NCBI RefSeq assembly: GCF_000017625.1
Contig: NC_009712.1
Span: 186,001-250,000, forward strand
DNA: 64,000 bases
Reading direction: 5' to 3'
Source: Methanoregula boonei 6A8
Lineage (GTDB): Archaea > Halobacteriota > Methanomicrobia > Methanomicrobiales > Methanospirillaceae
The notes beneath the pieces are model-generated. The model was not told where the DNA came from, searched no databases, and saw only the letters and a program-made list of their open reading frames with translations. A program made the position numbers and the translations under genes. Shown here one piece after another: positions 4,609 through 5,170 of this stretch. Positions within the stretch are counted from its first letter, which is position 1; each line of letters opens with the position of its first letter.

Positions 4609-5058
4609 TCAGATTGTTGTATCAATAACAACCTGATCGGTGGCCACGCCGTTTTTGGTGAAATGACCGGTCCCGACAACATGGTCCTGCCCCCGGTCAT
4701 GGGCTGCAAACAGTTCGGACGTCCCTACAGGCAGGTATGCCGCAGCCCGGACTGGCCCTACACCTCCCTTATCGGCTCCGTTCACCGTAACGGAAATGTA
4801 CTAGAGGTACTCTGCATCATTTCCCCCCTGGTACGTGATCTCAATGGTCCTGTCAGTGGATCTCGACACTGTTGCAGCAACGGTAAATGCCGGTCCGGCA
4901 GTCGTCCCTTCCGGCACGTAACCTGGCTGAGCCAGGGTAACTGCAGGAGATCCCGGCCAGGCTGTGCTCCCGGTTGAGGTCTGGGCGCAACCGGTAGAAA
5001 AGACCAAAAGGATCAGGAAAGCGAGAGTCCATAAGCGAACGAAAGGTCTGGCTCTCAT
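4609..5058 (-). pseudogene. lipoprotein gene interrupted by an in-frame TAG at codon 86
   Basis: The frame starts at ATG 5058 with a lipoprotein signal (LLVFSTGCAQ, lipobox Cys about residue 25). It runs 85 codons to TAG at 4801-4803, then stays open for 63 more codons to TGA at 4609-4611. The part after the stop reads YISVTVNGADKGG and later GTGHFTKNGVATDQVVIDT. Together with ITYQGGNDAEYL before the stop this resembles the secreted immunoglobulin-like domain found behind archaeal pilin and lipoprotein leaders. The TAG therefore replaces one residue inside a continuous domain. It is either a recent nonsense mutation, a sequence error or a recoded amber. CbiA (21948) and the KhtU-like gene (13359) end in TAG, so TAG is a normal stop here. 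Confidence 0.75.
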
Positions 5059-5170
5059 ATGTGCTCAGGAGGAGTGTGGCATCTTTGCCTTTTTTAAATG
5101 TCCCGCGATGGAATAGCGAACCGGGGAATGGAACCCGTCACGTCAACCTATCAGAACCCATTCCAGCTAA

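Follow-up and report, generated by a model that had tools for sequence, protein, structure and literature searches.

A single in-frame amber codon interrupts a pilin-domain lipoprotein gene of Methanoregula boonei

We find that a small lipoprotein gene of Methanoregula boonei 6A8 carries a single in-frame TAG at codon 86 and is an ordinary interrupted gene, with homology to related proteins on both sides of the TAG that is far beyond chance. The best explanation, to which we assign a probability of about 0.87, is that a recent nonsense mutation has made this an incipient pseudogene, or else that the reference is wrong by one base at this codon. This explanation is the most likely because the genome shows no machinery that would read TAG as an amino acid, and mutation and error are kept together because no closer orthologue turned up in the collections we searched. 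The gene lies in a window of 64,000 nucleotides (contig NC_009712.1, positions 186,001 to 250,000), from a genome of one contig of 2,542,943 bases; unless stated otherwise, positions below are those of the window.

The interrupted gene is encoded on the minus strand, from 5058 to 4609, as a 149-codon frame: an ATG at 5058 opens 85 codons, followed by the TAG (4803–4801), 63 further codons, and a terminal TGA (4611–4609). The original prediction had described this locus with correct coordinates and with codon counts, from lipobox to TGA, that hold on the minus strand, but had left out the strand. Read on the plus strand, 4609–5058 does not give this frame. The signal peptide (4984–5058, minus) contains a lipobox, FSTGC, assigned by eye in the translation (...VFSTGC in the read-through protein), with residue 24 as the lipidated Cys; structure prediction places a helix at residues 5–25 in this signal region. 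Approximately 35 bases upstream of the ATG, a TATA-box-like ATTTAAAAAA (5090–5099, minus), recognized by eye, is a possible candidate for an archaeal promoter. Downstream on the same strand lie a UPF0114 gene, whose only matches elsewhere were in two genomes of another family, and a DUF2070 gene; a diverging thermosome gene lies upstream.

Both halves of the frame belong to one protein family. Against a profile HMM built from 25 relatives, with the window protein left out, the read-through protein scored 79.0 bits and residues 1–85 scored 35.7 bits; within the latter, the stretch that opens the pilin-type C-terminal domain (residues 60–85, VAATVSR...YQGGNDAEYL; 4804–4881, minus) scored 28.5 bits alone. 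The remainder of the domain, residues 87–149 (4612–4800, minus), scored 29.7 bits alone (E 5e-9), while the best of 200 shuffles of this half reached 9.5 bits. In the profile alignment, model position 82 lies just before the TAG and 84 just after it; the TAG thus takes the place of exactly one codon, with the register of the relatives preserved, and tblastn matches of relatives run uninterrupted through the site. Apart from the TAG, the 149-codon frame has no other stop and no frameshift. By codon score the post-TAG frame ranks first among the six frames there (+10.9 over 63 codons, the other five being negative), and codon use in this half resembles that of the long genes of the window. A scan of the window for adjacent open frames in the same frame gave a list that we took to be normal gene neighbors and shadow frames. 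The proposal that the two sides join into one domain of archaeal pilin-like proteins and lipoproteins is thus borne out, and the possibility that the downstream frame might lack homology to related lipoproteins was checked and fell away, as the half after the TAG has homologues among related lipoproteins and pilins.

At the column of codon 86 (4801–4803, minus), all 25 aligned relatives carry a sense codon and none a stop; with a best identity of 45%, these are paralogues or distant relatives and not strict orthologues. The residues are Gln in eight, Thr in five, Ser in three, Gly, Glu and Val in two each, and Leu, Tyr and Ile. The column is therefore variable, with no special residue conserved. 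The claim that TAG had replaced a single sense codon agrees with this alignment, in which, for the distant relatives available, sense residues (mostly Gln, Thr or Ser) stand throughout and no protein ends at the TAG. In three relatives the codon is CAG, one transition away from TAG.

We suggest that a single base change, for example from a Gln codon CAG to TAG, produced the stop in what was a small cell-surface lipoprotein gene. Translation would now end at codon 86, giving a lipidated stub of 85 residues that retains only two domain strands and presumably has no function, and the frame after the TAG would be an undecayed relic. Because the rest of the frame shows no visible decay, the mutation is likely recent. 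Among 108 genomes of the family the closest proteins are at most 45% identical, indicating a poorly conserved gene, as expected if it is dispensable; neither these genomes nor a large genome collection contained an orthologue close enough to tell mutation from error, and relatives were likewise absent from viral contigs, phages and the large collection. The locus resembles the single-stop nonsense pseudogenes of prokaryotes, with one in-frame stop, an intact homologous remainder and a dispensable accessory gene, and has nothing distinctive in comparison, except that its lost codon is not fixed by a close orthologue. Against the explanation by mutation or error, a frame intact apart from the TAG would also fit sequence error or read-through, and the relatives by which the TAG is taken as derived are distant ones, with no close orthologue or second strain among them by which decay could be gauged.

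Within this explanation, we give a minor share to the possibility that the reference genome is wrong at one base and the real gene intact. Such an error would account for the otherwise intact frame and for the genome-like codon use after the TAG, but the genome is recorded as one complete contig and is presumably finished, and substitution errors are rare in finished genomes. Annotators should flag the locus as a probable pseudogene or check it for a base error; beyond annotation it carries little weight.

A different reading is that the TAG is read through, by pyrrolysine, a suppressor tRNA or a near-cognate tRNA, to give the full-length lipoprotein. The intact downstream frame is compatible with this, and among archaea pyrrolysine occurs in methanogens; the RNA just downstream of the TAG can also fold (−42.3 kcal/mol, z −2.0), a weak point that we did not count as evidence, as 10 of 200 shuffles folded as well. 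The machinery, however, was not found. A search of the genome with the PylS model TIGR02367 (cut-off 178 bits) returned only SepRS (27.5 bits) and PheRS alpha (21.9 bits), both far under the cut-off, and a DNA search for pylT with an approximate query gave a single 16-base match (E 0.15), at a site where no tRNA lies. Table 1 of PMC3037878 lists aSelBL for Methanoregula boonei, and does not list pylS. None of the 45 tRNA genes (44 from a tRNA model and one more from ARAGORN) has a CUA anticodon, with the reservation, which counts against our preferred explanation, that intron-containing tRNAs may escape such a search: it missed tRNA-Tyr and tRNA-Trp, presumably owing to introns in their genes.

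The gene itself also argues against read-through. The codon-86 column is variable, and no relative among the 25 has Lys or TAG there. TAG is moreover a normal terminator here, being the terminal stop of 5 of the 40 long genes in the window, in line with the remark in the original prediction that other genes here end in TAG. The locus shares with the pyrrolysine genes of Methanosarcinales and Methanomassiliicoccales an in-frame TAG, an intact downstream frame and a methanogen host, but differs from them in that pylS, pylT and a CUA tRNA were not detected in the host and in that the TAG stands at a variable column. Amber recoding is not supported, and read-through of any kind is highly improbable; of the three causes first proposed, nonsense mutation and base error remain, while recoding gains no support from the search of the genome for pylT and pylS, which yielded neither. 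The locus does not extend pyrrolysine use beyond the groups known for it. In the same genome, the O-phosphoseryl-tRNA synthetase (SepRS) gene lies approximately 6 kb past the window end (880–2532 of locus L001), and there are several tRNA-Cys (GCA) genes, two of them approximately 1.3 kb apart (loci L067 and L068).

It is also very unlikely that the gene encodes a functional short lipoprotein truly ending at codon 85, with the downstream frame irrelevant. Such a protein would retain the complete lipobox and a frame of 85 codons, but the half after the TAG is homologous and in register, and no relative ends at codon 85. A structure model of the read-through protein, built with Gln at the TAG (mean pLDDT 66), has a signal helix, a disordered linker and a beta-domain, and in this moderate-confidence model the third strand of the domain begins at the TAG, so that a stop here would cost most of the domain. 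A protein ending there would keep only two domain strands and probably could not form the domain. Partial read-through in the absence of pyrrolysine machinery, perhaps by a near-cognate tRNA, giving both the stub and a full-length surface lipoprotein, is likewise very improbable.

The C-terminal domain interrupted by the TAG (residues 60–149) is common to the type IV pilins of Methanomicrobiales (Pilin_N, PF07790) and to other lipoproteins of the order. Searched alone, the window lipoprotein matched nothing in Pfam, NCBIfam or PHROGs. A fold search with the moderate-confidence model returned weak matches only (best E 0.015), many of them immunoglobulin- or fibronectin-like beta-sandwiches, and the archaeal pilin 8gi2 at E 0.12. 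The domain is alike in the window lipoprotein and in archaeal type IV pilins with Pilin_N (those of its own genome at locus L024, and the solved chains 8gi2, 9myg and 8fj5), with the common pattern VAAT...ITYQGG.DA..L...VTVNG...HVVVVG.FTDG..QVILDT. In contrast to these pilins, the window lipoprotein has a lipobox in place of the class III/Pilin_N signal region, and neither a Pilin_N domain nor a class III signal peptide is present (no Pfam match).

Related genomes encode lipobox proteins with the same domain at five further loci. In its own genome the domain recurs in the pilin copies at contig positions 1858219 and 1859213, with a Pilin_N match in the one tested, and in a zinc-ribbon membrane protein at 437663, which is 45% identical to the window protein. 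Its occurrence on lipobox, Pilin_N and membrane-protein N-termini suggests that it has been exchanged between different surface anchors, and its presence on lipobox and membrane-protein N-termini may be of modest use for research on archaeal surface proteins. In the zinc-ribbon protein (664–930 of locus L023; contig positions 437663–437932, minus strand), the N-terminus to which the domain is fused combines a zinc-ribbon with several membrane spans. The two pilin genes (contig positions 1857700–1860000) lie approximately 1 kb apart and are near-identical, with few residues different.
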